DNA of 64,000 bases from Saprospiraceae bacterium (GTDB lineage: Bacteria > Bacteroidota > Bacteroidia > Chitinophagales > Saprospiraceae), in the NCBI GenBank assembly GCA_020631355.1, contig JAHDHL010000006.1, positions 1-64,000 of the forward strand. The letters are read 5' to 3'. Of this stretch, positions 30,405-51,314 are shown piece after piece. The position numbers were made by a program, and so were the translations under genes. The notes below the pieces were generated by a model. It worked only from the letters and a program-made list of their open reading frames with translations. It made no database searches and was not told where the DNA came from. Position 1 is the first letter of the stretch; each line of letters starts with the position of its first letter.

Positions 30405-31721
30405 ATGAAAAGTATTTGGATTCTACCTTTTCTGTTCTATTCTTCTTGGACTATGTCCCAAGATTATACTTCCTACTTTACAGGGAATGGGAATGATGTA
30501 ACTACCACTCCTAGCGGTGGAGTCTGTCTAATGGGTGGCGCAACTGAAAATGATGAAGCCATGAAATGGTTCCTCAATCGTTCAGATGGAGGAGACATCC
30601 TAATCCTTCGTACATCCGGTTCTGATGGATATAACGATTATTTCTATACCGACCTAGGCACTACCGTTAATTCTGTTGAAACCATCGTATTCAATAATTC
30701 GAATGCAGCCAATGATACTTATATACACAATAAGATACAACAGGCCGAAGCGATTTGGTTTGCAGGTGGTGACCAATGGAATTATATATCTTATTGGAGA
30801 GGTAACACCATAGGCCAACTCATTAATGAAGCCGTTTCAGATCGGAACATTGTCATTGGTGGAACCAGTGCAGGAATGGCTATTCTGGGACAATTATATT
30901 TCAGTGCGGAAAATGGTACAGTCACATCGAATACGGCACTTAATAATCCTTATGACAATGATGTTACCATTGATAATACTCCTTTCTTATCCATTCCATA
31001 TCTAGAAAACACCATTACGGACACGCATTATGATAATCCGGATAGAAAAGGCAGGCATGCCGTTTTTCTGGCTCGAATATTCAATGACTGGGGGCTGGAT
31101 GCCAAGGGAATAGCCTGTGAGGAATATACTGCCGTTTGCATTGCGCCCGATGGGATAGCCAGCGTATATGGCGAGTATCCAGAATACGATGATTTTGCTT
31201 ATTTCCTACAAGTCAACTGTGAATTGGAGCAATCCTTACCTGAAACCTGCATGGCCAATGAGCCATTGACATGGAATCATGATGGACAGGCAATCAAGGC
31301 ATATCAACTTCCCGGAACACTAAACGGAAGCAATACTTTTGATCTGAATGATTGGCAAACAGGAATTGGCGGAACTTGGATGGAATGGTCCGTTTTGTCA
31401 GGTTCCCTATCCGAACAGATGGCCGATGGGCCATCCTGTACGACTTCCATTTTGGAACCGGATAATCATTCACACATACGAGTTTTTCCCAATCCGAATA
31501 AGGATTTCATTTCGATTCAATCTGAATCATTCCCTTTCAATGGTCTTACAATCAGGAATACCCTGGGACAGATAGTATTTGAAAAAGATGATTTGGATAC
31601 GAATCAATATGGGTTCCAACACCAATTCCCATCGGGATTATATTTCGTGGAAACCTCATGGAAGCAGAATGGCCAAACGGAAAGTACCCAAGAGATGCTT
31701 CTGATTCAATCCAGAGAATAA
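30405..31721 (+). CDS. Secreted cyanophycinase-like (S51) protein with T9SS sorting domain
   Basis: Encodes 438 residues with a signal peptide (about residues 1-18). The core matches peptidase family S51: GGVCLMGGA near the start, WFAGGDQ at about 118-124, the nucleophile elbow GGTSAGMA with Ser155, and DTHYDNPDRKGR, which fits the DxHFxxRxRxGR motif with an aromatic Tyr replacing Phe. After the enzyme core comes a spacer, then a C-terminal sorting domain (about 360-438) with the FPNPNKDF motif and GLYFVE. It should cleave a beta-aspartyl or similar peptide bond outside the cell; cyanophycin is the classical target but is not proved here. Confidence 0.85.
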   Translation: MKSIWILPFLFYSSWTMSQDYTSYFTGNGNDVTTTPSGGVCLMGGATENDEAMKWFLNRSDGGDILILRTSGSDGYNDYFYTDLGTTVNSVETIVFNNSNAANDTYIHNKIQQAEAIWFAGGDQWNYISYWRGNTIGQLINEAVSDRNIVIGGTSAGMAILGQLYFSAENGTVTSNTALNNPYDNDVTIDNTPFLSIPYLENTITDTHYDNPDRKGRHAVFLARIFNDWGLDAKGIACEEYTAVCIAPDGIASVYGEYPEYDDFAYFLQVNCELEQSLPETCMANEPLTWNHDGQAIKAYQLPGTLNGSNTFDLNDWQTGIGGTWMEWSVLSGSLSEQMADGPSCTTSILEPDNHSHIRVFPNPNKDFISIQSESFPFNGLTIRNTLGQIVFEKDDLDTNQYGFQHQFPSGLYFVETSWKQNGQTESTQEMLLIQSRE

Positions 31722-35480: not shown

Positions 35481-36119
35481 CTATTCCTTTTTTAGGAAAA
35501 CATATCCTTTCTTTTCAGCTCCCCAAACTTGCTTCCCATCCTTATCGAACCCTTGATCCCAACTCTCGATTTTACCTTTTGTCACCTCGACCTTGGATGT
35601 AGCATAAGATGCTCCTCGTAAGGTACTACCACAGGAAGTAGCTCCTGTTGCCCCCTTGAAGTGATGCTCACCCAATCTTTTCATTACGACCTCACAACCC
35701 TCACGAATCTCCAATTGTTCAGGCTTCAATGCATCCCATTTCCTAGAATCTTTCCAAGCCATTATCCAATTCTTTTCATTGGGTAATTTATATACTTCGG
35801 ATACATAATCACCTGATGCATTCTGAAATAACTTATACACCCTCTGTCTATAAGGACGCTCCTGACTCTTGGTCACCGATTGTTCCACATACAAATACTT
35901 GGCATCCTCCCTATCTTTCCAAATGGGATACATATGCAAGGTAATATCATAGAATGCCTCATCCTCTGCTGCTTGCTGGGAAGAATCAAACGAACCCTGC
36001 ATCAATCCATATAGCTCATTCAGATGATTCTGCTTTGTTGCATTCAATCCTTTTTTTCCCTTACAGGAAAATGCAAGTAATGATATGGATATCAAAAATA
36101 CTATTGCTAATCTATTCAT
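35481..36119 (-). CDS. CpcT/CpeT-like lipoprotein
   Basis: About 212 residues from the ATG at 36119. The longer frame to 36164 adds a poor extra N terminus. The signal ends in the lipobox LLAFSCKGK. The mature part has the CpcT/CpeT pattern: a start LNELYGLMQGSFDS, then YDITLHMYPIWKDREDAKYLYVEQ, RQRVYKLFQ, and the late block HHFKGATGATSCGSTLRGASYATSKV. In cyanobacteria this fold attaches bilins to phycobiliproteins; here there are no phycobiliproteins, and the homologue is exported. It probably binds some other hydrophobic or carbonyl ligand. It converges on the neighbouring lipoprotein gene. Confidence 0.78.
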   Translation of the reverse strand: MNRLAIVFLISISLLAFSCKGKKGLNATKQNHLNELYGLMQGSFDSSQQAAEDEAFYDITLHMYPIWKDREDAKYLYVEQSVTKSQERPYRQRVYKLFQNASGDYVSEVYKLPNEKNWIMAWKDSRKWDALKPEQLEIREGCEVVMKRLGEHHFKGATGATSCGSTLRGASYATSKVEVTKGKIESWDQGFDKDGKQVWGAEKKGYVFLKKE

Positions 36120-36251
36120 GATTTTTAATATGATGTTTCGAAAGGTAATAAGATTCGAAATCATTCAATAATACTCCAAGCTAATTATCTTCTCTTTACA
36201 ACCTCTTTGGATTATATTCGTAAATAGAATAAGCCAATTCCAATCCATCTT

Positions 36252-39200
36252 ATGAAGCATATCATCATCGTTCTTTCCCTAATCATAACAACAACATCCC
36301 ACTTATACGCACAGTGCAATGCCGTATGTACTCCCCTAGCCTATGAGGGATTCGAATATGATGAACTCAGTCCCTTGGATGAACTATCCGGCGGCTCAGG
36401 TTGGGGTAATATTTGGGAAGTCCAGGGTAGTGACACATCCATCCCCGGATATCACGTTTCTGCTAATGATAACTTAGGATACGACGATTTACAAACTTTC
36501 GGTGGTGGTCTTTCAGGAGGGAATTCTTGGTTGAGTGCAGGTAGGGCCTTGGACTTATCGGAAGACGGATTATTCAATAATTATTTGGATAATGGCTTTA
36601 TCGGGGCGGAGAATACCACTTTGTATTTTTCTGCCATTATCCGTAAGGATGAAAATAATTCGGATCCGATCTTCATAAATTTACACGAGGGTAATATTCC
36701 TTGGTACGATGAATTTGACAGTCCCCAACTTACTGGTTTTGGATATTATGGAAATGCATCCAATGAGAATGGGACTGATTATTGGACACTCAGGATTTTT
36801 GATGATTATTATCTGTCGGACATACCTGTTGTAGTCGGAGAAGATGTTCTTTTTGTATTGGCAGTAACATTCGGAACCAATGATATGAATACCTACGATT
36901 GGTGGGTCAATCCTGCTACCATCGGTTCCAATATGCCAAGTCCTAGCCTGACCCAAACCATCAACGGAGAAATGCGCTTTCGTTCACTGAAACTCTATCA
37001 CGGTTCAGGTACGGAATTCGGAATCATGGATGAGATACGTTTTTCGGAAAGTTGGAACTGTGCCGTTCCGGATAGCAATACACCATTGAACAGGGTTCCA
37101 GTAGCTGAAATAACGACCACTACCCTTTCGGGAATGGGACCATTGGTTGTTGATTTTGATGCATCGAATTCATATGATCCGGATATCAATGGTGATATCA
37201 TATCCTATGAATGGGATTTTGGCGATGGTCAGACTGCATCAGGAGCCATCGTTTCCAATACCTATATCCATACCGGACAGATGACCGCCACACTTACCCT
37301 GACGGATAATTGTGGTTCTACCTTTTCGGAAATCATAACGATTACCGTTTTGGATGAGAATGGTGAATTCCCTTGCCTTTCTACCATCAGACTCGACCAA
37401 ATGGCTGATTTTGAAGTAGCCAATGGTGCCTTTTTTGTGGAAGGCGGTACGGACTATACACTTACGCTACCGGATAATTCCCAAATCAATCAATCGAATG
37501 GTCATTTCACCAATCTGGCTGCAGGACAATATGCATTGGAGGTCATGGGTCAGGGAGGTTGTACCGAAACTTTCGAAATCACCATTCCTACAGATAGTAC
37601 AAGCATCGAGAACTGGACACCGGATATCTGTAATTTCCATATCGGTATGAACATAGACGGTATCCCCTATTGGAACCAAATCAGGGCTTTCAAGGATTTT
37701 GCTATGCAAGCGGATGATTACTTTACAGGACCAGTTGAGGGAGGTGTTTGGAATTCAGGATATATGAATGAGGTAGCCGTTGATAATCAAGGATATCCAT
37801 TAGAACTCCCCTACTCCCCTAGTGATGGGGGTGGTGAACAATTAGTTAGGGGTGTCATATCAGCTGATGGCCATATGTTGCTTGGGGATTATGTCCTATT
37901 GTATGATGGGGAGGGCGTAGTAACCTTATTCGGAGATGTGCAGGAAATGGGTAATATTCCGGGTAGAATAGAATTCTCAGTCATTGGCCAAGGCAACATC
38001 TGGTATCATATCCAACAAAGTACATTAGGGAATCATGTAAGGAATGTACGTATAGTCAGGGTGGAAGACGAAGCAGATTTCGAAACAGCTCCTTTCTATG
38101 TACCATTCTTAGAGAAACTGAATGAATTCGAAGCCATTCGGTTCATGGATTGGGGGCATACCAATGGTTCAGAGCAAATAGCATGGTCGGATAGGAAGTT
38201 GCCCGATTATCATACGCAAGGACATGGCCATGCAGGAGTCGCTTATGAATGGATGATTGAATTGGCCAATCTGATGCAAAAAGATATCTGGATTTGTGTT
38301 CCTCACCAAGCAGATGATGACTATATCACTCAAATGGCCCTTTTGTTCAGGGAACAATTGGATGAAAATATTACCATTTATCTTGAATATTCCAATGAAG
38401 TATGGAATTGGCAATTCTCACAGGCACACTGGGTCAATGACCGCAAACCAGCCAATTGGTCCCAACAGAGATACTATGCCGAACGTTCCGGGAATGTATT
38501 CAGAATCTGGCACGATGTGTTTGCGAATGATGCGAATCGAGTGAAACGAGTCCTAGCTACACAGACGGTCAATCCTTGGCTCGGACAACAAGCCATGTCC
38601 CAACTCAAGGGGGAATTCGACTATCTATCCCCTACTTGGTACTTCGGATATGCTTCTGATATTTGCCAATCCCAATTGGAAGCACTGGGTGCCAATGCAA
38701 CAGCCGAGGACGTACTAGATTGTACCAGACAGAACTTTCTCGCACAAGCTGGTGCTTTGAGACAACAACATATGAATGCCAAACTCTACGGAAAGGAGGT
38801 AATTGAATACGAGGGAGGCCAACACATGACTTCGAATCCAGCCACGGTTTCATTCCAACAGGCCGTGTATGATGCACAAGTTCATCCCGGCATCTATGAC
38901 CTCTATCAGGAAGTCATGGATAGTCTTAGGATTTGGGATTCCAAATTGGCTATGGCATTCACGCTCTCAAGTGTCCGTGAATCCATATATGGTTCATGGG
39001 GAGCATTGGAATACATTGAGCAAGACCCTATGGTAACATCCGCACCTAAATGGGATGCCCTCATTGATAATATTCTTTGTTATGAACCCGCTGTCGATTT
39101 CTCGACAGATATAGCATACATACCCGACCATTCGATGAATATTCATTTATTCCCTAATCCCACATCAGGCATCCTGCATATGGAATGGGAAGTTTCCGCT

Positions 39201-39395
39201 TTAGAAAACCTACGGATTGATATTCATAATATCTTGGGCCAAAGCATCGCATCACATATCATCCAATCTCCTGATACTAAGTATAGCTTAGATTTGAGCC
39301 AAATGGGTCTTAGGAATGGAACGTATATCATACATCTCTCCCAAGGGGGTCAAACTTTGGGAACTGATAAGATTATCCTGATGCAAAGTGAATAA
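36252..39395 (+). CDS. Giant secreted protein: PKD domain, glycosidase-like domain, T9SS tail (paralogue 1)
   Basis: Encodes 1047 residues with a signal peptide ending LYAQ. Residues about 25-275 are beta-rich (likely a lectin-like jelly roll). A PKD domain follows (284-368, YEWDFGDGQ). Residues about 450-945 form a large domain with a TIM-barrel look: it begins CNFHIGMNIDGIPYW, contains YLEYSNEVWNW (Asn715-Glu716, the NE pair of clan-A acid/bases) and later IEYEGGQH (Glu854, position of a nucleophile). A T9SS sorting domain ends the protein (960-1047, LFPNPTSG). It has a close paralogue at 43463-46825, with the sensor/regulator pair between them. It is probably a surface polysaccharide hydrolase, family unassigned by me. 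Confidence 0.78.
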   Translation: MKHIIIVLSLIITTTSHLYAQCNAVCTPLAYEGFEYDELSPLDELSGGSGWGNIWEVQGSDTSIPGYHVSANDNLGYDDLQTFGGGLSGGNSWLSAGRALDLSEDGLFNNYLDNGFIGAENTTLYFSAIIRKDENNSDPIFINLHEGNIPWYDEFDSPQLTGFGYYGNASNENGTDYWTLRIFDDYYLSDIPVVVGEDVLFVLAVTFGTNDMNTYDWWVNPATIGSNMPSPSLTQTINGEMRFRSLKLYHGSGTEFGIMDEIRFSESWNCAVPDSNTPLNRVPVAEITTTTLSGMGPLVVDFDASNSYDPDINGDIISYEWDFGDGQTASGAIVSNTYIHTGQMTATLTLTDNCGSTFSEIITITVLDENGEFPCLSTIRLDQMADFEVANGAFFVEGGTDYTLTLPDNSQINQSNGHFTNLAAGQYALEVMGQGGCTETFEITIPTDSTSIENWTPDICNFHIGMNIDGIPYWNQIRAFKDFAMQADDYFTGPVEGGVWNSGYMNEVAVDNQGYPLELPYSPSDGGGEQLVRGVISADGHMLLGDYVLLYDGEGVVTLFGDVQEMGNIPGRIEFSVIGQGNIWYHIQQSTLGNHVRNVRIVRVEDEADFETAPFYVPFLEKLNEFEAIRFMDWGHTNGSEQIAWSDRKLPDYHTQGHGHAGVAYEWMIELANLMQKDIWICVPHQADDDYITQMALLFREQLDENITIYLEYSNEVWNWQFSQAHWVNDRKPANWSQQRYYAERSGNVFRIWHDVFANDANRVKRVLATQTVNPWLGQQAMSQLKGEFDYLSPTWYFGYASDICQSQLEALGANATAEDVLDCTRQNFLAQAGALRQQHMNAKLYGKEVIEYEGGQHMTSNPATVSFQQAVYDAQVHPGIYDLYQEVMDSLRIWDSKLAMAFTLSSVRESIYGSWGALEYIEQDPMVTSAPKWDALIDNILCYEPAVDFSTDIAYIPDHSMNIHLFPNPTSGILHMEWEVSALENLRIDIHNILGQSIASHIIQSPDTKYSLDLSQMGLRNGTYIIHLSQGGQTLGTDKIILMQSE

Positions 39396-39423
39396 AACAG
39401 AGTATTGGAATCATTCACAAATA

Positions 39424-39456
39424 ATTATCTAATGAATTAATATACAATTAGATAAT
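39424..39456. repeat. Inverted repeat in the 155-base gap before the sensor kinase gene
   Basis: Ten-base arms ATTATCTAAT and ATTAGATAAT around a 13-base AT-rich loop, then a short T-rich run. It lies 29 bases after the end of paralogue 1 and could be a weak terminator or an operator for the regulator genes. Confidence 0.5.
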
Positions 39457-39550
39457 CATCATTTTATTTTCAATAGCATTCACAAAAATTGAATTTCATA
39501 TTGTTGGTACTTGAAATGAATTCTAAATTTATATTGTTTTGACCAACCTG

Positions 39551-42529
39551 ATGAAAAAACATATCATTCTTGGTATCCTATTCCTTGCATCTTTCCGTAT
39601 GGATGCCCAATCCCTACGTTTCAAACATTACACTACCAATGATTTCCTTTCACAGAATAGTGTGATAGATATTGCACAAGATAGTTTCGGCATGGTTTGG
39701 ATGGCTACACAGGATGGCCTGAATCGGTACGATGGCAATGACGTAACACTATTTGAGAAGTATTTTACAGATATCACCAAACCTACTTACAGTAGACTCG
39801 GTCAAATTTTTGTGGACCACCAGAATCAGGTCTGGATCAGCACCCTGAATGGTCATCTGGAATATTATAGTTATACCACTGATTCCTTTACCCTTGTTCC
39901 TAATATTCAATATGCGAGTTCGATTCTTGAAGATGATGAACATCACCTTTGGGTAGCTACCTACGATAGTGGTTTATATGAATTGAAACCCGATGAAAAC
40001 GGATATGATGTCCATCATTATCTTCCCCAAACGGGCATCAATACCATGGTGATACACGAAAACGAACTCATTCTGGGCCGGTACGATGGTGCATATATTT
40101 TTGATCTCAAGGAGAAAAAAACCAAGACTATTCTCAAGGAGTTGAATGATAAGCCCATTAGTAAAATCATCCGAGCCAAGAAAGGATTCTATTGGGGTAC
40201 CCATGGTCAGGGTTTTTATTTCAGTTCGGATTTGGAACAGGTCCGTCAGGTTCAATCCATTCCCCACCATTTGAACATTCAGGATGTAATAGAAGATAAC
40301 AAACAACAAATATGGGTAGCTACTTATGGGGATGGGACTTATCTTTTAGGGAATCAGGGCATCCAACAATTCAAACATAATCCACAGAATGAATATTCCA
40401 TAAATTACAATGATATCATTAGCCTATTCGAGGATCGTGAGGGACATATTTGGATGGGATCCGATGGTGGAGGCGTATCCATTACGAGTGATGCCCTCAA
40501 TGTTTTCCATGTATTATCCCAAAATCAGGTAAGGGATGATGTTTTTGTAAAAGTCCCCCGCTCCATTGCCATGGATGAACGGGGACAATTATGGATTGGA
40601 ACCTCAGGACACGGACTGACGATGTTAGCTCCAAATGGTACTTTGGAAACTTTCAAAACTGATGATTCAAAATTGAATAGTAACCGAATCATGAGCCTTG
40701 TTGCCATCAAAAACCAACTCTGGATTGGACATCAGGATGGAGGTTTCCAAGGGATGGATATCGCAACCCAAACCTTTTTTGAAACTTCCGACACATTGCC
40801 TTGCAAAACGGTTTGGAACATCTTACCCATCCATAACAATCAATTACTACTGGCTACCAGACAAAATGGAATCATTCTCTACGATACAAAAAATAAGACG
40901 CATCAAATTTTCAAACCCTCACAATTAATTAATGCAACAATTTCCGATAATATCCGAAAAATAATTACGGGTAATAATGGAATATTCTATATGGGAACCG
41001 AACAGGGAGAAATACTTTCCTTGAATATACATACACAACAATTTCAAATCATCGACATCCCCATTCAGACATCCATAAAGACATTATACATAGAAAATCA
41101 TATGCTTTGGATTGGAACCCAAGGAGAGGGTATTTATTTATATGACTTAGAAAAAGGAGAGCATTCTAGAATACATAAGAAAGATGGACTCCCCAATAAT
41201 GTTATTTATTCCATTCTTTCGGATACTGACGATTTCCTATGGATAAGTACCAATAAAGGTATATGCCAATTGAATAAAAAAAATATTCTCAATAAAACAC
41301 AACCTTATATCCAGCAATATTTCACTAAGGATTCCGGCTTAATTAATAATGAATTCAATACGGGTGCATATTTCAAATCCAGGGATAATATTATTTATTT
41401 CGGTGGATTAGATGGCATCAATTGGTTCAACCCCAAGGATATTCGAAAGGACAGCATTTTCAGCCATATACTTTTACAAAAAATCAACTATCAACACCAT
41501 GACACATTCAAGGAGACTTCCTTATTAAACAAGAAAAAAATAGACTTGTCCCATTTCAATAAAAATTTCCAAATCCGATTCAATGCCTTGGATTTCCTTG
41601 GAATAGAGGATAAGAATTATCAAATAAAACTGGAGGGCATCCATCAAAATTGGATTGAAAATGGAAAAAGTAATACTGCCAACTTCACCAATATTCCTCC
41701 TGGAAATTATAGATTCCGAGTCAGAACAGTCCATTCCAATGGTGAAGCATTCCAAGAAGCCAAAGCCCTAGAAATCAATATACATCCAGCGTTTTGGCAA
41801 ACCAATATCTTTAGAATTACCTGTATTTGCTTAGGAATGGGAAGCATACTGGGATTGTTGTATTGGCGGGAAAGAATCAGGGATAAAAAAGCTGAAGTCA
41901 AGGAGAAAATCATTTTATCAGAAGCCAAGGCTCTCAGGAATCAGATGAATCCTCATTTCATTTTCAATAGCCTCAATTCCATAGACAGTCTCATCCTACT
42001 AAAAAAATCAGAAAAAGCTTCCGAATATCTTGGAAAATTCAGTCAATTGATGCGTAAGATTCTAGGAACAGAAGAAAATGTGATTGACCTTTCCGAAGAA
42101 TTAAAAAACATTAATTTATATGTCCAATTGGAACAATTAAGATTTTCAAAAGAATTTGATTTTAATATTCATGTAGAACCTGACATTGATATCAGGCACA
42201 TTAAGATTCCTCCATTGGTGCTCCAACCTTTTGTAGAAAATGCCATCTTACACGGATTGATGTACAAGGAGGGAAAAGGCCATCTTCATATTAATATCAG
42301 TAGAAGAAATTCATTTATCATTTATGAGATCATTGATGATGGAATAGGAATAAAAATGTCCAAAAAAATCAATGATAAAAAAAGAAAACATAAGCAATCC
42401 CTTGGATTAAAAATTACCAAGGAAAGAATAGAATTATATAGCCAATCCTATACGAAAAAAGGACATGTAGACATCACCGAGCATATACCCCAAGGTACAA
42501 AGGTCACCATTTATTTACCTTACCAATAA
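39551..42529 (+). CDS. Two-component-propeller sensor histidine kinase (LytS-type)
   Basis: About 992 residues from the ATG at 39551 (a TTG lies four codons earlier). A signal segment leads into a long periplasmic part made of Reg_prop propeller repeats (WMATQDGLNRYDG, WIGTSGHGLTML, WISTNKGICQL and others), then a Y_Y_Y domain (about 665-740, NYRFRVRTVHSNGE). One membrane span (about 752-772) precedes a His_kinase domain with NQMNPHFIFNSLNS (phosphorylated His802) and an HATPase_c domain (LQPFVENAILHGL). It should sense an extracellular, probably carbohydrate, ligand and phosphorylate the LytTR regulator encoded 16 bases downstream. Unlike hybrid SusR-type sensors it lacks its own receiver and AraC domains. 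Confidence 0.93.
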   Translation: MKKHIILGILFLASFRMDAQSLRFKHYTTNDFLSQNSVIDIAQDSFGMVWMATQDGLNRYDGNDVTLFEKYFTDITKPTYSRLGQIFVDHQNQVWISTLNGHLEYYSYTTDSFTLVPNIQYASSILEDDEHHLWVATYDSGLYELKPDENGYDVHHYLPQTGINTMVIHENELILGRYDGAYIFDLKEKKTKTILKELNDKPISKIIRAKKGFYWGTHGQGFYFSSDLEQVRQVQSIPHHLNIQDVIEDNKQQIWVATYGDGTYLLGNQGIQQFKHNPQNEYSINYNDIISLFEDREGHIWMGSDGGGVSITSDALNVFHVLSQNQVRDDVFVKVPRSIAMDERGQLWIGTSGHGLTMLAPNGTLETFKTDDSKLNSNRIMSLVAIKNQLWIGHQDGGFQGMDIATQTFFETSDTLPCKTVWNILPIHNNQLLLATRQNGIILYDTKNKTHQIFKPSQLINATISDNIRKIITGNNGIFYMGTEQGEILSLNIHTQQFQIIDIPIQTSIKTLYIENHMLWIGTQGEGIYLYDLEKGEHSRIHKKDGLPNNVIYSILSDTDDFLWISTNKGICQLNKKNILNKTQPYIQQYFTKDSGLINNEFNTGAYFKSRDNIIYFGGLDGINWFNPKDIRKDSIFSHILLQKINYQHHDTFKETSLLNKKKIDLSHFNKNFQIRFNALDFLGIEDKNYQIKLEGIHQNWIENGKSNTANFTNIPPGNYRFRVRTVHSNGEAFQEAKALEINIHPAFWQTNIFRITCICLGMGSILGLLYWRERIRDKKAEVKEKIILSEAKALRNQMNPHFIFNSLNSIDSLILLKKSEKASEYLGKFSQLMRKILGTEENVIDLSEELKNINLYVQLEQLRFSKEFDFNIHVEPDIDIRHIKIPPLVLQPFVENAILHGLMYKEGKGHLHINISRRNSFIIYEIIDDGIGIKMSKKINDKKRKHKQSLGLKITKERIELYSQSYTKKGHVDITEHIPQGTKVTIYLPYQ

Positions 42530-42545
42530 ATCCAACAACGAATTT

Positions 42546-43295
42546 ATGAAAGCCATTCTCATTGATGACGAACAAGCAGCTTTACTCAGTCTGAAAAGCA
42601 AGTTGGAATTATATTGTCCCGAAATCGAAATCCTTGAATTATGCGATTCTGCCAAGACGGGTTTCAAGGCTGTCAATACCATGAATCCGGATATTATTTT
42701 CCTTGATATAGAAATGCCTTGGATCAATGGTTTTGAATTTCTGGAATCCTTGGGTGATGATATTCAATTCGAAGTGATTTTCGTAACAGCTTATAACCAG
42801 TATGCCATCAAAGCCTTTAAATATTCCGCAATGGATTATTTATTGAAACCGGTCATCAAAGATGACTTGATTGAATTATACGAACGACTACTCAAGAAAA
42901 AAAGTAAATTCGATAAGGATAAAATCGCTCAACTCAAAGCGGACATCTCCATCGAGGGACATTCCAAAAGATTGTTATTATCCGTATCCGATGGCATAGA
43001 AATCGTCCATGAAAATGAGATACTCTACTGTAAGGCAGATGCGAATTACACAGAAATCCATCTCAAGGAAAGAAAGATGATTGTTGTGAGTAAGAACCTT
43101 GCCCAAATTGAAAAATTACTGGATCAGCAATTCTTCTTTAGGATTCATCATTCCTATCTCGTCAATCTTACGGCCATCAAAAGATTCAGGCAGACCGATG
43201 GTAGCGAAATCATTCTATTTAATCAAACTTCATTACCCGTTTCCAGACGAAAAAAAATGGACCTACTGGAAGCCATCCAAAATCTAGCTGATTGA
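42546..43295 (+). CDS. LytTR-family response regulator
   Basis: Encodes 249 residues. The receiver domain is canonical: acidic pocket Asp7-Asp8, phospho-acceptor Asp54 (FLDIEMP), Thr81 (VTAYN) and Lys101 (LLKPV). The C-terminal LytTR DNA-binding domain (about 150-249) has NEILYCKADANYTEI, FFRIHHSYLVNL and the closing RRKKMDLLEAI. It should bind short direct repeats ahead of target genes once phosphorylated by the kinase just upstream. Its likely targets are the two large secreted paralogues on each side, although I could not pick out a shared binding site by eye. Confidence 0.95.
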   Translation: MKAILIDDEQAALLSLKSKLELYCPEIEILELCDSAKTGFKAVNTMNPDIIFLDIEMPWINGFEFLESLGDDIQFEVIFVTAYNQYAIKAFKYSAMDYLLKPVIKDDLIELYERLLKKKSKFDKDKIAQLKADISIEGHSKRLLLSVSDGIEIVHENEILYCKADANYTEIHLKERKMIVVSKNLAQIEKLLDQQFFFRIHHSYLVNLTAIKRFRQTDGSEIILFNQTSLPVSRRKKMDLLEAIQNLAD

Positions 43296-43462
43296 TTGGT
43301 ATTCATGGCCAGATGACACCAACCAATCATACATCATTCCATACCAAGTATCAACTGATGCATACCCTTTGTTCAACCATTCTCCATTGAACCCCGATTT
43401 GATTTACATTGCAAATGAAACCACCCCCCTACCCTAAGTCATCCGCAGTAATATCCAAACCA

Positions 43463-46400
43463 ATGATGAAACAAATAATTGTCATCCTATCCTTACTATT
43501 CCCCCTGAGTCTACAAGGACAGTGTCCGGGCATTTGTAATCCATTCACCTATGAGGGCTTTAACTATGCCGATTTGACTCCCCTACATGAACAACAAGGA
43601 GGAACAGGATGGAATGACGCATGGGTGGTTCAGAATGATAACATAACCGTTCCCGGCTACCATATTTCCACTACGGAGAGTATACCCTACATGGATTTAC
43701 AATCAACCGGTGGCACATTGAACGGAGGTAGCCAATACGATGCGATAGGCAGATTACTGGATGTGAGTGAGGATAGTCCATATCAGAATATCATGGCCAG
43801 TTACAATTCCGTTGGGGCAGCAGGAAGCACGCTTTACTTTTCATTCAAAATCAGAATTGACCAATACAACGGCTCCCATTTCGGACATATGCACAACGGT
43901 ACTAATCCGACGAGAGACAACTTCAATGGTGCCCAAATCCTAGGTGCGGGGGTGTACGGTAGTGATTCTGATGTTGGCGGAACCATCTACTGGACACTTC
44001 GGGTATTCAACAATTATTACCCTACCAATATTCCCCTCACACTCAACGAGGATGTACTCATCGTACTCCGTGCAGAAATGGGTGCCAATGACAATAACAC
44101 TTACAGCATCTGGGTCAATCCAAGTACCATTGGGGCGACCATGCCTACTCCTGATTTAGTCCAAGCCATTTCCGGACAGATGAGCTTCCGCTCTATTAAA
44201 TTCTATCTCAATAATGTTTCCGGAGCCAATCATGTGGATGAGGTCAGGGTTGCGGATTCCTATGAATGCGCCACACCTGATGCGGTTACGGCTCTCAATC
44301 AATTACCCCAAATCAGCATGAGCAATAGCAGTATGAATGGCAATGCGCCACATACCGTAAGCTTTGATGCCAGTTCCTCAACGGATTCGGATGGTTCCAT
44401 TGTCAATTATGAATGGCATTTCGGTGATGGGGAAACAGCCACAGGTCCCATCGTGAATCATCAATACGATATTACCGGGAATATGACGGGACATGTTATA
44501 GCTACGGATAATTGCGGAGCCCAGAATGCCACGACATTCGATGTAGCTATTGCAGATATGAATGGTAATTTTCCTTGTCAGAGTGTAGTCCAATTGGAAA
44601 GAATGGCAGATTGGAGTACGGATAATGGAAGAATAGAAGCATTCGGTGGGGATAGCTATACCCTTACCTACCCCGATATGAGCCAAACAACCCAGGCAAA
44701 TGGTACATTCGTACAACTCGCTCAGGGAGATTATGAATTGGTTGTCTCATCCAATGGTGGCACATGCACCGATACTTTCAATCTGGTGGTCCCTCTGGAT
44801 AGCAACAGTATTCCCGGATGGTCACCCAATCCTTGCCTCACCCGCATGGGGATGAATATCGATCCTCTGAATTATTGGAATTCGTCCAGACATCTCAAGG
44901 ATTATGCAAGACAAGCAGGTTATTTCAGAACATTCTCAGCCCTTGGAAATACGGAATTCATGGATAGCATACCTGTGGATGCAAGTGGTTATCCATTGGA
45001 ACTTCCCTTTGTTCCCGCGGATGGTTCCGGCGACCAATATGTCAGGAGCTCAATAGCATCGGCCGGTCATATGCTCCCCGGCGATTATGTACTCACCTAT
45101 GATGGTGATGGAATCATTGCCATGAGTAATTCAGTCAATATCACCCAAAACATCGCCGGTAGAATTGAATTCAACCTGCCCAATCCAGATGGTGTATTCA
45201 TCCGTATTTTCCAAAGTACAATCGGGAATCACATCAGGAATATCCATATCTTCAGAACGGAAGATGAATCCACTTATCAATCCGCTCCATTCAATGCTCA
45301 TTTTCTAGACAAACTGAATCATTTCGAAGTCATCAGATTCATGGAGGCACAGGATATCAATGAAGCAGAACAAGTGGATTGGATAGACCGAAAACCTGCT
45401 AACTTTTACTCGGAAGCATTCGGTTACAGTGAGGGAGTATCCTACGAATTCATCATAGAATTGGCCAATCTGACAAGAAAGGATATCTGGGTCAATGTAC
45501 CGCATGCAGCCAGTGATGATTACATAACGCAAATGGCAACGTTTTTCAGGGATAATCTTCATCCCGATGTGGATGTATACATTGAATATTCCAATGAAGT
45601 ATGGAATTTTTTCTTTCCCCAAACCTACTGGGTACTTGATAGAACCCCGAGTCACTGGAGTTATGAGCGAAAATATGCACAACTGTCCAAGAATGTATTT
45701 GATATTTGGAAAGGGGTTTGGACAGGACAGGAAGACCGTATTAAGACAGTCCTTGGTACGTGGTTGAATAGTGAAGTCCACGGCATGCAGGGATTGGCCT
45801 ACCTCAAGGGAGAAGTGGATTACATTGCCCCTACTTGGTATTTTGGTAGTGGTTGTTCGAATAATATTCCCAACGGTGCTACCGTTCAGGATGTATTGGA
45901 CTGTGCGGAACAAAGTCTCATCAATAACATGGAAGCACTCAGGGCTCATACCAGAAATGCCAAGATGTTTGGCGTGGAAATCATTACTTATGAGGGTGGG
46001 CAACACTTGGTTCCAAGGAATGGCAGTGACCCGAATGCACAAGCTATTTATGATGCGCAGATTCATCCCAGCATGTATGATTTGTACCAAAGGGCGATTG
46101 ATTCCCTTAGGGTCCTTGACAACAAACTTATCATGCCATTTACCTTATCTTCCTGGCGAGAAAGTCAGTTCGGTTCATGGGGAGCTTTGGAATATATAGA
46201 ACAGGATGCCAGCGTGGAACCAGCTCCGAAATGGGAGGCACTACTGGATAATATTGTATGTTATACTCCTCCTGTGAATCTGTTCTTACCTGTCGAACTC
46301 CTATCGTTCAGGGCCCAATGTGGAACGGAGATATCATTCGCATGGTCTACTCTCACCGAACAGAACAGTTCCCATTTCGAAGTTGAAATGTGGCAAGGGA

Positions 46401-46825
46401 ACCATTGGATAACACTAGGAGAAATCGAGGCAGCCGGCCATACCGCACAGATACAATATTATGAATTTGAGTACAAGAGGAATGAATTGCAAGGAACACA
46501 ATATTTCAGATTAAAGATGGTCGATTTGGATGGGACTTTCGAGTACAGTGATATCATCCCATCCCAGTGTGGTAAGGATAATAACATATCAATCCATCCT
46601 AATCCTACACATGGAATGCTTCAAATCACCAGTAAGGATACACAATCATCCATCCTTGAAATCTATAATGTCCTGAGTCAGAAAATCATATCCTTACCAT
46701 TTGATGAGACATCCTTGGAGTTGGACTTGAATACTTATCCGATGACCAGTGGTACGTATTTCTTATTCGTAAGGAATGATAGTCATATCATCCATCAGGA
46801 GAAAATCATTTATTTGGAGGATTAG
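43463..46825 (+). CDS. Giant secreted protein: PKD domain, glycosidase-like domain, beta-sandwich, T9SS tail (paralogue 2)
   Basis: About 1120 residues from the ATG at 43463 (a second ATG follows at once; the frame is open to 43409 but without a signal). The signal peptide ends SLQGQ. The domains follow paralogue 1: beta-rich N terminus, PKD (about 280-365, YEWHFGDGE), then the glycosidase-like domain with IEYSNEVWNF (Asn710-Glu711, counted from the second ATG) and ITYEGGQH (Glu843). An extra module of about 100 residues, starting PVELLSFRAQC, precedes the T9SS tail (HPNPTHG). This is the common Bacteroidota beta-sandwich before sorting domains. Expected to be a secreted polysaccharide-active protein under the adjacent two-component pair. 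Confidence 0.78.
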   Translation: MMKQIIVILSLLFPLSLQGQCPGICNPFTYEGFNYADLTPLHEQQGGTGWNDAWVVQNDNITVPGYHISTTESIPYMDLQSTGGTLNGGSQYDAIGRLLDVSEDSPYQNIMASYNSVGAAGSTLYFSFKIRIDQYNGSHFGHMHNGTNPTRDNFNGAQILGAGVYGSDSDVGGTIYWTLRVFNNYYPTNIPLTLNEDVLIVLRAEMGANDNNTYSIWVNPSTIGATMPTPDLVQAISGQMSFRSIKFYLNNVSGANHVDEVRVADSYECATPDAVTALNQLPQISMSNSSMNGNAPHTVSFDASSSTDSDGSIVNYEWHFGDGETATGPIVNHQYDITGNMTGHVIATDNCGAQNATTFDVAIADMNGNFPCQSVVQLERMADWSTDNGRIEAFGGDSYTLTYPDMSQTTQANGTFVQLAQGDYELVVSSNGGTCTDTFNLVVPLDSNSIPGWSPNPCLTRMGMNIDPLNYWNSSRHLKDYARQAGYFRTFSALGNTEFMDSIPVDASGYPLELPFVPADGSGDQYVRSSIASAGHMLPGDYVLTYDGDGIIAMSNSVNITQNIAGRIEFNLPNPDGVFIRIFQSTIGNHIRNIHIFRTEDESTYQSAPFNAHFLDKLNHFEVIRFMEAQDINEAEQVDWIDRKPANFYSEAFGYSEGVSYEFIIELANLTRKDIWVNVPHAASDDYITQMATFFRDNLHPDVDVYIEYSNEVWNFFFPQTYWVLDRTPSHWSYERKYAQLSKNVFDIWKGVWTGQEDRIKTVLGTWLNSEVHGMQGLAYLKGEVDYIAPTWYFGSGCSNNIPNGATVQDVLDCAEQSLINNMEALRAHTRNAKMFGVEIITYEGGQHLVPRNGSDPNAQAIYDAQIHPSMYDLYQRAIDSLRVLDNKLIMPFTLSSWRESQFGSWGALEYIEQDASVEPAPKWEALLDNIVCYTPPVNLFLPVELLSFRAQCGTEISFAWSTLTEQNSSHFEVEMWQGNHWITLGEIEAAGHTAQIQYYEFEYKRNELQGTQYFRLKMVDLDGTFEYSDIIPSQCGKDNNISIHPNPTHGMLQITSKDTQSSILEIYNVLSQKIISLPFDETSLELDLNTYPMTSGTYFLFVRNDSHIIHQEKIIYLED

Positions 46826-47878: not shown

Positions 47879-50800
47879 CTAATGTTTGATGATTTTTTCG
47901 GAGTGAACCATTTCACCCTCATTCCAAATCTGGACATGGTACATGCCACCATTCAGATGGGAAAGATTCAGTTCCGTTTGCTGGGAATGCATCAGTTTTC
48001 TTCCCATCATGTCAAAAATAAGAACATCCACCGATTCTAAGCTAGTTTTAATATTCAATTGGTCCACAATAGGATTCGGATAGGTTGAAATATCATCCGA
48101 AGTGAGGAAATCATCTGTTGTCAATGATTCATCAGACATCCTATTACCACCTGAGCAACTGGTCTGAACTTCATATGCTCCTAGGTCCGCAGTACCGAAT
48201 ATCCTGATAGCTCCTGTTATATCCTCAGTAATCCCGCTGGATAATGCATCATCTCCCATATCAACTATAGGCGAACAATCCTGTACGGAATAATCCGCAT
48301 TCAACAATAGGTCACCTACAGTTGCTGACATCAGTGTATTGGTTCCATTACCAATAACGGTACTACCTTGGAAGTAACAATTATTGTGATTGAAATTCAA
48401 TATTCCATTGTTGAAAGCCTTTACATTCTTTGAGAATGCCAAATTTTGGTGTGCTATGATGGAATTATCAATATTCACATCCAACTGGTCATTGAATCCA
48501 ATTTGGAAAGTCATCAATAACTTGTTCTTGGTCTCTCCCAGAACGGTTGTATGAATCATATCAAATGTCTGGTCCCTGTTCGTAGCAATCAATGCAATTG
48601 CATTGGCATTCTGCGAAGCATTATTAGCGATGATACTATTCTCTATATAGGTATATAAGGAATTATTGATTTCAATGGCACATCTGCCTGAAGCGCTGTT
48701 ATTAATGATTCTTGAAGAACGCACATACATCATAGTTTCATTACTGTGGTACAATGCACTTCCATTCAATGCGGTATTATTCTCCAATAAACAATGATTA
48801 ACGTTCACTTCCGGTGAAAGCGTAGCAAACATGGCACCACCATAAATGGCATGGTTGCCGGTAAGTCTGACATCCTGTAATGTCAGAGTAGCACCCACGG
48901 AATAAATGGCTCCACCCCTGGCACGTCCGAATGTATTGGCGTTATCGGCATTTCCGTCCTCAATGGTTAGGCCATCCAAGACCACATCCGTAGCATCCGT
49001 CAATTTGACCACATGGAATGAGTTGCCTGATAATGTATTATCCTGGTCGATATCTCCTGATAATGTAGTGGTGTAAGTAGTTGCATCACGGTCTCCTCCT
49101 CCTATTGGGTATCCACCCCACAATTGGACATTCGATGGTACTTCGAATGCTGCTCCCCTACTGGTTCCTGAAGTGGGATAATACATTCCCTCTGCCATGT
49201 GAACATAAGCAAGGCAAGTTCCATCCAATGCAGCCAAAGCTAGTTGCAAATCGGTGTAAGCATCAGCCCATGATGTTCCATCATTATTACCAGAAGCTGC
49301 CAAATCCACATATACATCCGTAGCTACACAGCCCACAGGAGGATTGACGGGGTCTTCGCAATGCCATTCATTATCATAATAATAACCTCCACAAGTGTGT
49401 AAGTCCAAGGTTTGGTCCGCACCATTATTACTGAAAATGATATTCGTACATCCTACAGCCATAGTACCTGAAAACCAACCATCTCCCTCGTCTACCAAGG
49501 TATCACCCGGCCAGGGATCCGTTACTTCATTACCGAGTGAATCCCAAGCATAGAAATGGGTATATCCTTGTACGTAGACCGTAATTGAGCTAGCGGTTCC
49601 ATCGTTGCACTCCACCTCACCCGTAGGAGGAGGATCTGTATGGAATGCTCCATCATAATAATATCCACCACATGTGACCAAATCGGCTGTTTGGTCTTCT
49701 CCTCCATTACTGAATATGATATTGGCACATTCAGTCGGGGATGAGAATGTAATGGAATACCATCCATCCATAAAGGTCATGGAACCACCCGGCCACGCTC
49801 CCAAAAGAGGGTTATCATTGTCATCCCATGCATAGGCATTCGTAAAACTTTGGGCATATACCGTGATATCATAATTAGCAGGCGGTGGAGGTGTTTGGGT
49901 TTGGTCCAGCCATACTGCATAGTTATTCCCGGATGCAACCATCACCCAATTTCCGGCCAAACCTGCGGAATTGGGATCCCAATTGCTATTTCCTAGTTTT
50001 ACAGCGAGATTCGATTGGTCTCCCTGGATGGTAGCTGCATAGAACTGATTGGAATAGGATTGGATAGTCAACGGACTCTCACTATGGATACCCGCAGTTT
50101 TCCTTGCGCTCATTAGGGAAGTGATTTCCTGCTTTACATTGTTCCCCCAATCAAAATAGTGGGGATAGAATATGGTGGGAACACCAGGATGCGTCAGGAT
50201 ATATGCATAACCTGAGCCGATATTATTTCCATTGAGAATATTGTTATCCGAATCATAATAAGGGGTATCGTGATTTTCCAAGAAAGTAACATAATTCCTT
50301 GGGTCCCAGCCAATACCTCCGGGTGCAGCATTCTGGTAGGCCAGATAACTCCAATTATTATCCTTGATAGCCCCCTTGACACTATAATAGGTCGGAAAAT
50401 CGAATGCTGCGGAACCAGTCTCATCAATCCAATTCTGAATGACCTGTTTATCCTGTGTCCAATATTCACCTACGGAGAATGAGGGATTTGTATTGTTATT
50501 ATAATGAGTGATATAATATTCATCATATCCATGTACGAAATCGTATCTCCAACCATCGTATCCTACTCCTTTCAGGACATTATTCATCCAAGAAATAACT
50601 TCTTGCTGTACATAAGGATTAGAATGGTCTATGTCACGAGCAGGTCCGTAGGCCGTACCTGTGTCATTATTTCCTCTGGGAAATGTATTCGAATGTTCGG
50701 GTTGGTTCCAGACCTCATCATTGCTACAAATCACATCTGTTCCCCATGCCGGATTACAGAAATCCAACCAATTGCCACATCCAATTCTGTGATTGATGAC

Positions 50801-51136
50801 GATATCTGCAATTACTTCTATCCCCTCATTATGCAGGGCTGTTATCATTGCTGCGTGTTCGGTGGCTGTACCGTAGGCATTTCCCAGATTATTCAATTCA
50901 CGAGGCAGATATCCCTGCGGGGCTCCTGAATTACTTGGAGGTGGCATCCAAACCATGTCAAAACCTGCTGTTCCCAGCTCGCTCGATAAGGTATTGATGT
51001 TATTGTACCAACCGTTGGAATTATCCTGTGCATCCCAATAGAATCCTTGTAAGAGAATCCTATCATCATTGGGAACTTGGGCGGTCAACTGGACAGTGAC
51101 TGCAATGAGTATGGCAAACAAACTGATACGTTTCAT
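47879..51136 (-). CDS. Secreted multidomain alpha-amylase with starch-binding modules, beta-helix and T9SS tail
   Basis: 1085 residues from the ATG at 51136 (a longer frame to 51187 adds a non-signal stretch). The signal peptide ends VQLTAQ. The GH13 barrel (about 22-410) has VINHRIGCG, nucleophile Asp199 (GWRYDF), acid/base Glu224 (SVGEYW) and Asp290 (ENHDT). Two copies of a starch-binding module (CBM26-like) follow (about 421-500 and 515-595), each ending in the CGGYYYD motif. Residues about 605-1005 form a right-handed beta-helix of the polymorphic-outer-membrane type (GGAIYS, GGAMFA). The T9SS domain closes the protein (YPNPIVDQ). It should cut alpha-1,4-glucan on or outside the surface. 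Confidence 0.93.
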   Translation of the reverse strand: MKRISLFAILIAVTVQLTAQVPNDDRILLQGFYWDAQDNSNGWYNNINTLSSELGTAGFDMVWMPPPSNSGAPQGYLPRELNNLGNAYGTATEHAAMITALHNEGIEVIADIVINHRIGCGNWLDFCNPAWGTDVICSNDEVWNQPEHSNTFPRGNNDTGTAYGPARDIDHSNPYVQQEVISWMNNVLKGVGYDGWRYDFVHGYDEYYITHYNNNTNPSFSVGEYWTQDKQVIQNWIDETGSAAFDFPTYYSVKGAIKDNNWSYLAYQNAAPGGIGWDPRNYVTFLENHDTPYYDSDNNILNGNNIGSGYAYILTHPGVPTIFYPHYFDWGNNVKQEITSLMSARKTAGIHSESPLTIQSYSNQFYAATIQGDQSNLAVKLGNSNWDPNSAGLAGNWVMVASGNNYAVWLDQTQTPPPPANYDITVYAQSFTNAYAWDDNDNPLLGAWPGGSMTFMDGWYSITFSSPTECANIIFSNGGEDQTADLVTCGGYYYDGAFHTDPPPTGEVECNDGTASSITVYVQGYTHFYAWDSLGNEVTDPWPGDTLVDEGDGWFSGTMAVGCTNIIFSNNGADQTLDLHTCGGYYYDNEWHCEDPVNPPVGCVATDVYVDLAASGNNDGTSWADAYTDLQLALAALDGTCLAYVHMAEGMYYPTSGTSRGAAFEVPSNVQLWGGYPIGGGDRDATTYTTTLSGDIDQDNTLSGNSFHVVKLTDATDVVLDGLTIEDGNADNANTFGRARGGAIYSVGATLTLQDVRLTGNHAIYGGAMFATLSPEVNVNHCLLENNTALNGSALYHSNETMMYVRSSRIINNSASGRCAIEINNSLYTYIENSIIANNASQNANAIALIATNRDQTFDMIHTTVLGETKNKLLMTFQIGFNDQLDVNIDNSIIAHQNLAFSKNVKAFNNGILNFNHNNCYFQGSTVIGNGTNTLMSATVGDLLLNADYSVQDCSPIVDMGDDALSSGITEDITGAIRIFGTADLGAYEVQTSCSGGNRMSDESLTTDDFLTSDDISTYPNPIVDQLNIKTSLESVDVLIFDMMGRKLMHSQQTELNLSHLNGGMYHVQIWNEGEMVHSEKIIKH

Positions 51137-51314
51137 TTTGTTACTTTGACTTGATGAGTAGAAAGAAGTTATTTGCGTAAAACCCAAATGACTCCATGCA
51201 AAAGTTTGCCGGCTACGAGTAAATATAGAATATTATTGTAATGTAATCCAAATATCTTAGTGTCAAATTGACACACCTTTTTGAAATTCATACTATTTAT
51301 AGTCAAAACTGACA

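Follow-up and report, generated by a model that had tools for sequence, protein, structure and literature searches.

Does a Saprospiraceae locus in which two giant, apparently secreted paralogues enclose a sensor kinase and a LytTR regulator form one compact, self-regulated unit of surface degradation, as a first-pass annotation proposed, or do the giants stand apart from the regulators between them? Within the window, that is, the whole 64-kb stretch of DNA analysed, four ORFs follow one another on the + strand in the order that annotation described, namely giant 1 (P1; 36252..39395, 1047 aa), a periplasmic propeller sensor histidine kinase (39551..42529), a REC-LytTR response regulator (42546..43295, 249 aa) and giant 2 (P2; 43463..46825, 1120 aa, ATG at 43463). 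Intergenic gaps in this order are 143 bp (155 bp to the kinase ATG), 16 bp and 167 bp; the kinase ORF (39539-42529) opens with TTG, and the ATG at 39551 is the likelier start. The claim that nothing else lies between the four genes also held, as the remaining ORFs of at least 90 aa within 36252-46825 overlap them antisense or out of frame, none convincingly, and were taken as unsupported as genes. The SusC/SusD pair that defines a polysaccharide utilization locus was not found at this locus, in agreement with the annotation: the largest window ORF besides the giants, the kinase and an amylase is at most 805 aa, no SusC-sized ORF in the window lacks an assignment, and the neighbours covered by the Pfam scan, which took in part of the window ORFs, are not SusC/D.

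Domain structure and duplication of the giants

P1 comprises an apparent signal peptide (recognized by eye), an N-terminal beta-rich domain, a PKD domain (37089..37349, + strand, residues 280-366; PF18911, E 6.1e-17, with collagenase PKD matches in PDB), a linker, a GH-A-like core and a T9SS type A sorting domain (39147..39377, + strand, residues 966-1042; PF18962, E 2e-9; TIGR04183). P2 has the same domain order, PKD and sorting domain included, with a longer stretch ahead of the sorting domain (46592..46810, + strand; PF18962, E 1.4e-8). In both giants the sorting domain scores above the PF18962 / TIGR04183 cut-off, and a SprA gene was found in the same genome; at the sequence level, these observations support the earlier suggestion that the giants are exported and attached by T9SS. 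The P1 N-terminal domain was poorly modelled (pLDDT 69.8, residues 7-74 below 50), and its lectin- and calreticulin-like fold matches were weak.

The two giants share 457 identical residues over 953 aligned positions (48%, E = 0.0), far beyond chance, and both phrase pairs quoted in support of their kinship were recovered in the alignment. They also form a sister pair in a single clade (SH-aLRT 97) of a tree that took 12 of 46 Rhodobacterales-group rows and excluded rows spanning fewer than 430 query positions as well as L123, which belongs to the contig of L015. This identity and the sister placement bear out the view that the giants are products of duplication. Their terminal branches differ in length, at 0.8 for P2 vs 0.21 for P1.

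A predicted GH-A-type core with an invariant glutamate pair

The core occupies residues ~455-950 of the giants (37596..39116 in P1 and 44807..46282 in P2, both on the + strand). No match to the P1 core was found in Pfam or NCBIfam, and searching 70 aligned cores against these libraries returned just isolated weak matches, with 1-3 members per family and best E values of 0.019 and 0.0034; the core profile retrieved nothing from PDB sequences at E <= 10. These cores make up alignment A1, headed by the P1 core, in which 70 of 80 rows remained after a redundancy filter, the 80 having already passed a coverage filter; of 241 relatives, the best 80 had been retained. Nothing on the core family, including its motif SNEVWN, was found among the open-licence PMC articles listed. 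We call the family unnamed in the sense that it is without an entry in Pfam, NCBIfam and PDB sequences, CAZy/dbCAN families lying outside the comparison.

AlphaFold2, queried with the P1 core, confidently predicted a TIM barrel (pLDDT 92.7, pTM 0.92) with a beta-sandwich (core residues 82-155) inserted near the barrel start. The top Foldseek match was a GH51 arabinofuranosidase (E 3.1e-6, probability 1), followed by other glycosidases, and whole-query TM-scores were low (0.27-0.39 among the 50 matches shown). VIA-align ranked a bacterial heparanase best (5bwi_B; Z 21.7, 300 residues, 3.5 A), with GH51 at about Z 21.5, beta-glucuronidase at about 21 and GH39 at about 19; heparanase and beta-glucuronidase belong to GH79, which like GH51 is placed in clan GH-A. 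By this predicted fold, the core is a clan GH-A-type (beta/alpha)8 barrel.

Two glutamates in the model are candidates for catalysis, and both are invariant in 70/70 aligned cores. The proposed acid/base, P1 E716 (core E268; codon 38397..38399, + strand), lies in the SNEVWN motif just past strand 4, and the proposed nucleophile, E854 (core E406; codon 38811..38813, + strand), lies in the YEGG motif, where strand 7 ends. Strands 4 and 7 comprise residues 261-265 and 401-406 of the core model, with strand numbering that is our own. Their P2 counterparts would be E712 (acid/base; codon 45596..45598, + strand) and E844 (nucleophile; codon 45992..45994, + strand). In the model, the placement of the pair at strands 4 (N-E) and 7 fits the clan GH-A plan and, together with the predicted fold, supports the suggestion that the giants are polysaccharide-active enzymes. 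P2 keeps both glutamates and deviates at the near-invariant positions D185, W186, T189, W272, Q273 and Q323, a count that leans against both window copies, as the conserved columns were picked without the window rows.

The modelled core resembles GH51 and GH79 enzymes in its TIM barrel, aligned at Z of about 21 over about 300 residues, and in its N-E motif glutamate past strand 4 and glutamate ending strand 7. It differs from them in aligning structurally at 8-15% identity and in having an early beta-sandwich insertion plus its own motifs, SNEVWN and YEGG. Kinship to GH51 by sequence was considered and rejected, the P1 core being without a Pfam match; because hhalign of A1 vs five GH51-type proteins gave a probability of just 0.6%, the kinship is one of fold only.

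Relatives of the core and their gene neighbourhoods

Core relatives were detected in 142 of 398 Saprospiraceae genomes and, elsewhere, in cyanobacteria, Rhodobacterales, planctomycetes and others. Rhodobacterales relatives mostly sit within polysaccharide-synthesis clusters, with at least two glycosyltransferase-like ORFs in 41/46 loci of this group and a flippase-like ORF in 38/46. Among cyanobacterial loci, 8/20 contained at least two glycosyltransferase-like ORFs, 13/20 any such ORF and 9/20 a flippase-like ORF; this context was Pfam-typed in one locus each of the Rhodobacterales group and the cyanobacteria. Glycosyltransferase-like ORFs were detected in 0/44 giant loci of the Saprospiraceae type and in 0/7 loci of a mixed group of others. 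Some relatives join the core to further modules: RTX repeats and a GH16 domain (PF00722, E 4.7e-18) accompany it in a Paracoccus marcusii plasmid protein, L251 and L252 join it to RTX repeats, and L254 to cadherin/Big domains. No neighbouring family, the giant itself aside, recurs in more than five of the 44 giant loci, and the substrate is therefore not readable from context.

Conservation of the four-gene arrangement

The four-gene order was sought in relatives and not found. A propeller kinase-LytTR pair stood beside the giant in 0/45 other giant loci, and a second core ORF likewise in 0/45; the giant of the nearest relative is also without the pair. Of the 45 loci, 29 have 3 kb or more on each side and 16 have less than 3 kb on at least one. 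The flanks examined were those of 43 giants and 17 short forms, with weaker and partial long ORFs left out. In the short-flank loci, and in G291 and G230, where a different contig carries a further partial core, contig ends may have separated tandem copies. In L160, a LytTR-like regulator and two short kinases lie ~1.9 kb upstream of the giant, with a 571-aa ORF between; this was not counted as a case, its kinases not being the propeller kinase of the window. In L142, L143 and L155, small ORFs of 365-440 aa resemble the propeller (33-79 bits), with no kinase match. A conserved giant-kinase-LytTR-giant locus is rejected, because giants were found apart from the regulator pair in all 45 other loci, the very finding that the first-pass annotation had named as counting against it.

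The sensor contains Reg_prop, Y_Y_Y, His_kinase and HATPase domains, and the regulator REC and LytTR; the H-box His (41954) and the phospho-acceptor Asp of REC (42705) are present. In a hybrid two-component system, as defined in PMC11253607, a single chain unites sensor, kinase and regulator, whereas here kinase and LytTR regulator are separate proteins. The Reg_prop and Y_Y_Y periplasmic sensor is shared with the solved one-chain hybrids 4a2l and 3v9f, but the separate regulator, the LytTR output and the lack of a nearby SusC-sized gene set the window pair apart from them. The combination of His_kinase with REC-LytTR recalls LytS/LytR-type systems, from which the pair differs in its propeller-type sensor and in a regulator whose best NCBIfam match, BtsR, falls below cut-off (140.1 of 246 bits). 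The closest kinase homologues, found at E <= 1e-150 in 6 of 297 other same-family genomes (best three candidates scored per genome), are 37-41% identical and adjoin other genes, with no giants.

Nor was a direct repeat shared by the regions upstream of 36252 and 43463, which the annotation had suggested looking for, detected. No motif common to the P1 and P2 upstream regions exceeded shuffled controls (best match p = 0.18), and no LytTR-style direct repeat with 19-24 bp spacing occurred in the upstream regions. The strict Bacteroidetes promoter, TTG-N17..21-TAnnTTTG, was absent upstream of P1, kinase and P2. Direct-repeat pairs did occur within single regions, two upstream of the kinase (copies of 14 nt spaced at 33 bp and of 10 nt spaced at 65 bp) and a third upstream of P2 (10 nt, 137 bp); all were taken as chance.

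Proposed role and alternative explanations

We consider it probable that the giants are glycoside hydrolases exported by T9SS, from a family without an entry in Pfam, NCBIfam or PDB sequences, duplicated in this lineage, with an ordinary regulator pair between the copies; catalysis, substrate class, export and insertion history are what we infer here. The giants would leave via Sec, then be carried by T9SS and attached to the surface; polymer may bind to the PKD and N-terminal modules, and retaining cleavage would proceed by E716 and E854 in P1 and by E712 and E844 in P2. The copies would stem from duplication within this lineage, after which P2 appears to have changed faster than P1 with both glutamates retained, which suggests a shifted substrate preference. 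A non-catalytic barrel that binds glycans or acts as an adhesin would suit the giants, since surface proteins that are large and carry PKD and lectin-like modules can be adhesins, and the weak fold matches of the poorly modelled N-terminal part lean the same way; invariance of both glutamates and their surrounding motifs in 70/70 cores across phyla is hardly needed for binding alone, and we regard such a role as very improbable. A model in which breakdown products are sensed by the propeller kinase and transcription of both giants is set through the LytTR regulator is compatible with the giants being enzymes and parts from the preferred reading on regulation. One-strand contiguity, the enclosure of the pair by sister copies and the resemblance of the sensor to 4a2l and 3v9f favour such control, and lineage-specific regulation would be invisible in relatives. 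Against it stand the absence of the pair from all 45 other giant loci, the other genes beside near kinase homologues, the lack of a common upstream motif and the 23 LytTR domains of the genome, because of which it is unremarkable to find a LytTR gene close to one for a secreted protein; we judge such control unlikely. In the preferred reading, the kinase and regulator would form a two-component system of ordinary type, placed between the copies during the history of this lineage; it may regulate the giants locally, with no conserved sign of it. The position of one regulator pair exactly between both copies is a coincidence that a free-standing pair leaves unexplained.

A further alternative, also compatible with enzymatic activity and differing in role, is that the core acts on the cell's own exopolysaccharide, trimming or releasing it in matrix formation, and not on food polymers. 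The synthesis-cluster neighbourhood hints at exopolysaccharide processing over feeding, given that the relatives in Rhodobacterales, and roughly half of those in cyanobacteria, sit among glycosyltransferases and flippases; fusions to RTX (L251, L252) or cadherin/Big domains (L254) fit a matrix protein, and R. denitrificans encodes one core relative on pTB2, a plasmid to which PMC3141670 ascribes importance in cell envelope biosynthesis. Glycosyltransferase- or flippase-like neighbours occurred, however, in 0/44 Saprospiraceae-type giant loci, as judged with queries from other phyla, and we hold this role to be a tentative option. Equally speculative is a wider proposal, that the core defines a glycoside hydrolase family spanning six phyla and acting on bacterial or algal exopolysaccharide, which its makers (Rhodobacterales and cyanobacteria) would encode within the synthesis cluster and Saprospiraceae would attack, as the same polymer class, through T9SS modules, with the core duplicated in the lineage of the window and copy 2 shifted in specificity; the family is unnamed in the sense given above. 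A conserved, enzyme-like family for which the libraries searched offer no name, structure or sequence match occurs in about a third of the sampled Saprospiraceae genomes and in exopolysaccharide clusters of cyanobacteria and roseobacters, and is of more interest than the supposed regulated locus, whose regulator arrangement is a local curiosity. Assigning a substrate to the family would aid the annotation of genes at present called 'hypothetical' or 'calcium-binding protein' and could connect the organisms that make matrix in aquatic biofilms with those that degrade it.

Setting of the locus within the genus

No giant was found in eight other genus members at E <= 1e-15, three of which (G033, G309 and G339) hold only the short form. 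In a search of the genus for an empty site, PBP1C was present in 6/8 of them at E <= 1e-60; because gene order beyond PBP1C differs or contigs end, insertion boundaries cannot be set. P2 residues ~941-1116 are similar to the tails of other T9SS-type proteins from the genus, and in four members (L219-L222) an ORF of 216-1680 aa near PBP1C resembles this part of giant 2 only, matching its T9SS tail, not the core, at 28-35% identity.

Gene layout of the locus

The region 36252-46825 comprised four genes, all on the + strand, which confirms the first-pass observation that two paralogous giants enclose a kinase/LytTR pair. After giant 1 (36252-39395; 1047 aa) came a sensor kinase, in which Reg_prop repeats and the domains Y_Y_Y, His_kinase and HATPase were recognized, then a REC-LytTR regulator and lastly giant 2 (from the ATG at 43463 to 46825; 1120 aa). 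Both giants carried a PKD domain, a T9SS type A sorting domain and, by eye, an apparent signal peptide, and were 48% identical across 953 aa. In sequence, the sensor kinase matched two propeller sensors of solved structure, 4a2l and 3v9f. With successive intergenic gaps of 143, 16 and 167 bp, the genes could form three transcription units, one for each giant and one shared by kinase and regulator. The genome (6.16 Mb) contained 23 LytTR domains.

A GH-A-like core in both giants

No Pfam or NCBIfam family matched the core of giant 1 (residues ~455-950 of the giants), only isolated weak matches to these databases were obtained across 70 aligned cores (the two giants and 68 relatives), and profile searches of PDB sequences returned no core match. 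AlphaFold2 on the 70-row alignment predicted a barrel plus a beta-sandwich around core residues 82-155 (pLDDT 92.7, pTM 0.92). Foldseek placed GH51 arabinofuranosidases first (E 3.1e-6); further down its ranking came galactanases, GH5_4 glucanases, beta-glucuronidases and xylanases. VIA-align gave Z 21.7 for bacterial heparanase 5bwi and about 21.5 for GH51. If residues 15-19 are counted as the first strand and residues 180-182 as the second, E268 (SNEVWN; proposed acid/base, giant 1 E716) lies just past strand 4 (261-265) in the model and E406 (YEGG; proposed nucleophile, giant 1 E854) at the end of strand 7 (401-406), both invariant in 70/70 cores. Glutamates in these two positions correspond to the plan of clan GH-A. 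The core resembled GH51 in predicted fold but not in sequence, with no signal in a comparison of the two profiles, so that it probably works like clan GH-A while belonging to none of the families tested. Predicted structure and conservation support a putative enzyme identity for the giants; rival explanations of regulation and role are compatible with that identity, and the confidences of the explanations overlap accordingly.

History of the two giants

The duplication proposed for the giants was supported by a 105-row core tree, in which they were sisters (SH-aLRT 97), neighboured by UBA2329 (98) and a Spirosomataceae MAG (95), with all giants in a single group (99). The end branch of giant 2 was 0.8 against 0.21 for giant 1, in a quick-method tree whose program itself warns that long branches are unsure. 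At 72 strongly conserved columns, giant 2 departed at 16 and giant 1 at 11, compared with a median of 1 over 70 rows and 9-10 for three other giants (L013, L014 and L015), indicating that giants are generally divergent and giant 2 more so. Giant 2 retained both glutamates (its E712 and E844), with D185, W186, T189, W272, Q273 and Q323 altered. The simplest reading is duplication in this lineage, then quicker change of the second copy. The giant 2 tail (residues ~941-1116; 46283-46810) resembled T9SS-type protein tails in four same-genus genomes (28-35% identity), encoded by ORFs near PBP1C (L219-L222) whose likeness to giant 2 was limited to the tail, which suggests that T9SS tails may be exchanged among surface proteins of the genus.

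Conservation and regulation of the four-gene order

The core was present in 142 of 398 same-family genomes (E <= 1e-15). Flanks were retrieved for 43 giants (L123-L165) and 17 short forms of the core (L166-L182); adding L013 and L014 gave 45 giant loci, with at least 3 kb on each side in 29 and at least 5 kb in 23. A propeller kinase and LytTR pair adjoined the giant in none of these 45 other loci, and none had a second core ORF on the retrieved stretch. One (L160) had a different kinase-regulator set ~1.9 kb upstream of its giant, and two genomes (G291 and G230) held a second partial core, each on a separate contig. The kinase and regulator queries found no match across 21 kb of the nearest relative, UBA2329 (DDUV01000102.1). 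Comparable kinase homologues (37-41% identity, E <= 1e-150) occurred in only six cases among 297 other genomes, three candidates being scored in each genome; a relative of the regulator lay near three of them (L223, L227 and L228), and a giant on the stretch retrieved around none (0/6). The compact locus envisaged by the first-pass annotation is not supported as a conserved regulatory unit.

Nor did the direct repeat suggested upstream of 36252 and 43463 materialize: no LytTR-style direct repeat was found in the giants' upstream regions, which shared no common element (their best local match scored 18, and shuffled sequences averaged 15.8; p = 0.18). Co-regulation of the giants within this lineage is possible.

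Distribution and neighbours of the core family

The core family is rare in Bacteroidota beyond Saprospiraceae (12 of 395 phylum genomes matched, nine of those outside Saprospiraceae; E <= 1e-20). Using glycosyltransferase- and flippase-like queries from one Rhodobacterales-group and one cyanobacterial locus, at least one glycosyltransferase-like ORF was found on the retrieved stretch in 46/46 Rhodobacterales-group loci (at least two in 41/46; flippase-like in 38/46) and in 13/20 cyanobacterial loci (at least two in 8/20; flippase-like in 9/20). The same queries detected such synthesis-type neighbours in 0/44 Saprospiraceae-type giant loci, 0/7 loci of the mixed 'other' group and 1/17 Saprospiraceae short forms. 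On annotated plasmid records, core proteins were labelled, for example, 'hypothetical', 'calcium-binding' or 'cadherin-like'; a Paracoccus marcusii protein combined the core with GH16 and RTX repeats. In Roseobacter denitrificans, the core lies near glycosyltransferase genes on pTB2, a plasmid described as important for cell envelope biosynthesis (PMC3141670).

One Rhodobacterales locus (L046:2876-7468) encoded a megaprotein with formyltransferase, adenylation, luciferase-like monooxygenase and PCP domains near the core, and ORFs matching it occurred inside glycosyltransferase clusters in 38/46 Rhodobacterales-group loci. L047, counted in this group, comes from a record titled Nocardioides marinus (Actinomycetota); its core falls among Rhodobacterales cores in the tree, and the record may be mislabelled or contaminated.

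Other genes of the window and its genome

A T9SS-tagged alpha-amylase with two CBM26 stretches was encoded at 47879-51187 (- strand); its C-terminal ~480 residues, found at 20 further places in the same genome and 39 in same-genus G206, are a repeated surface-protein module. A Peptidase S51 protein of the cyanophycinase type at 30405-31721 (+ strand) bore a T9SS sorting domain. At 35481-36164 (- strand), this Bacteroidota genome encoded a protein of the CpeT/CpcT family, a phycobilin lyase family; it was found in only one of eight other same-genus genomes. A third core copy in the genome (G000:C69:4226-5887; L166:4082-5911), short and T9SS-tagged, closely followed the genes of a beta-helix protein and of a further T9SS protein on their downstream side, and a short form of the core was common to three genus members.
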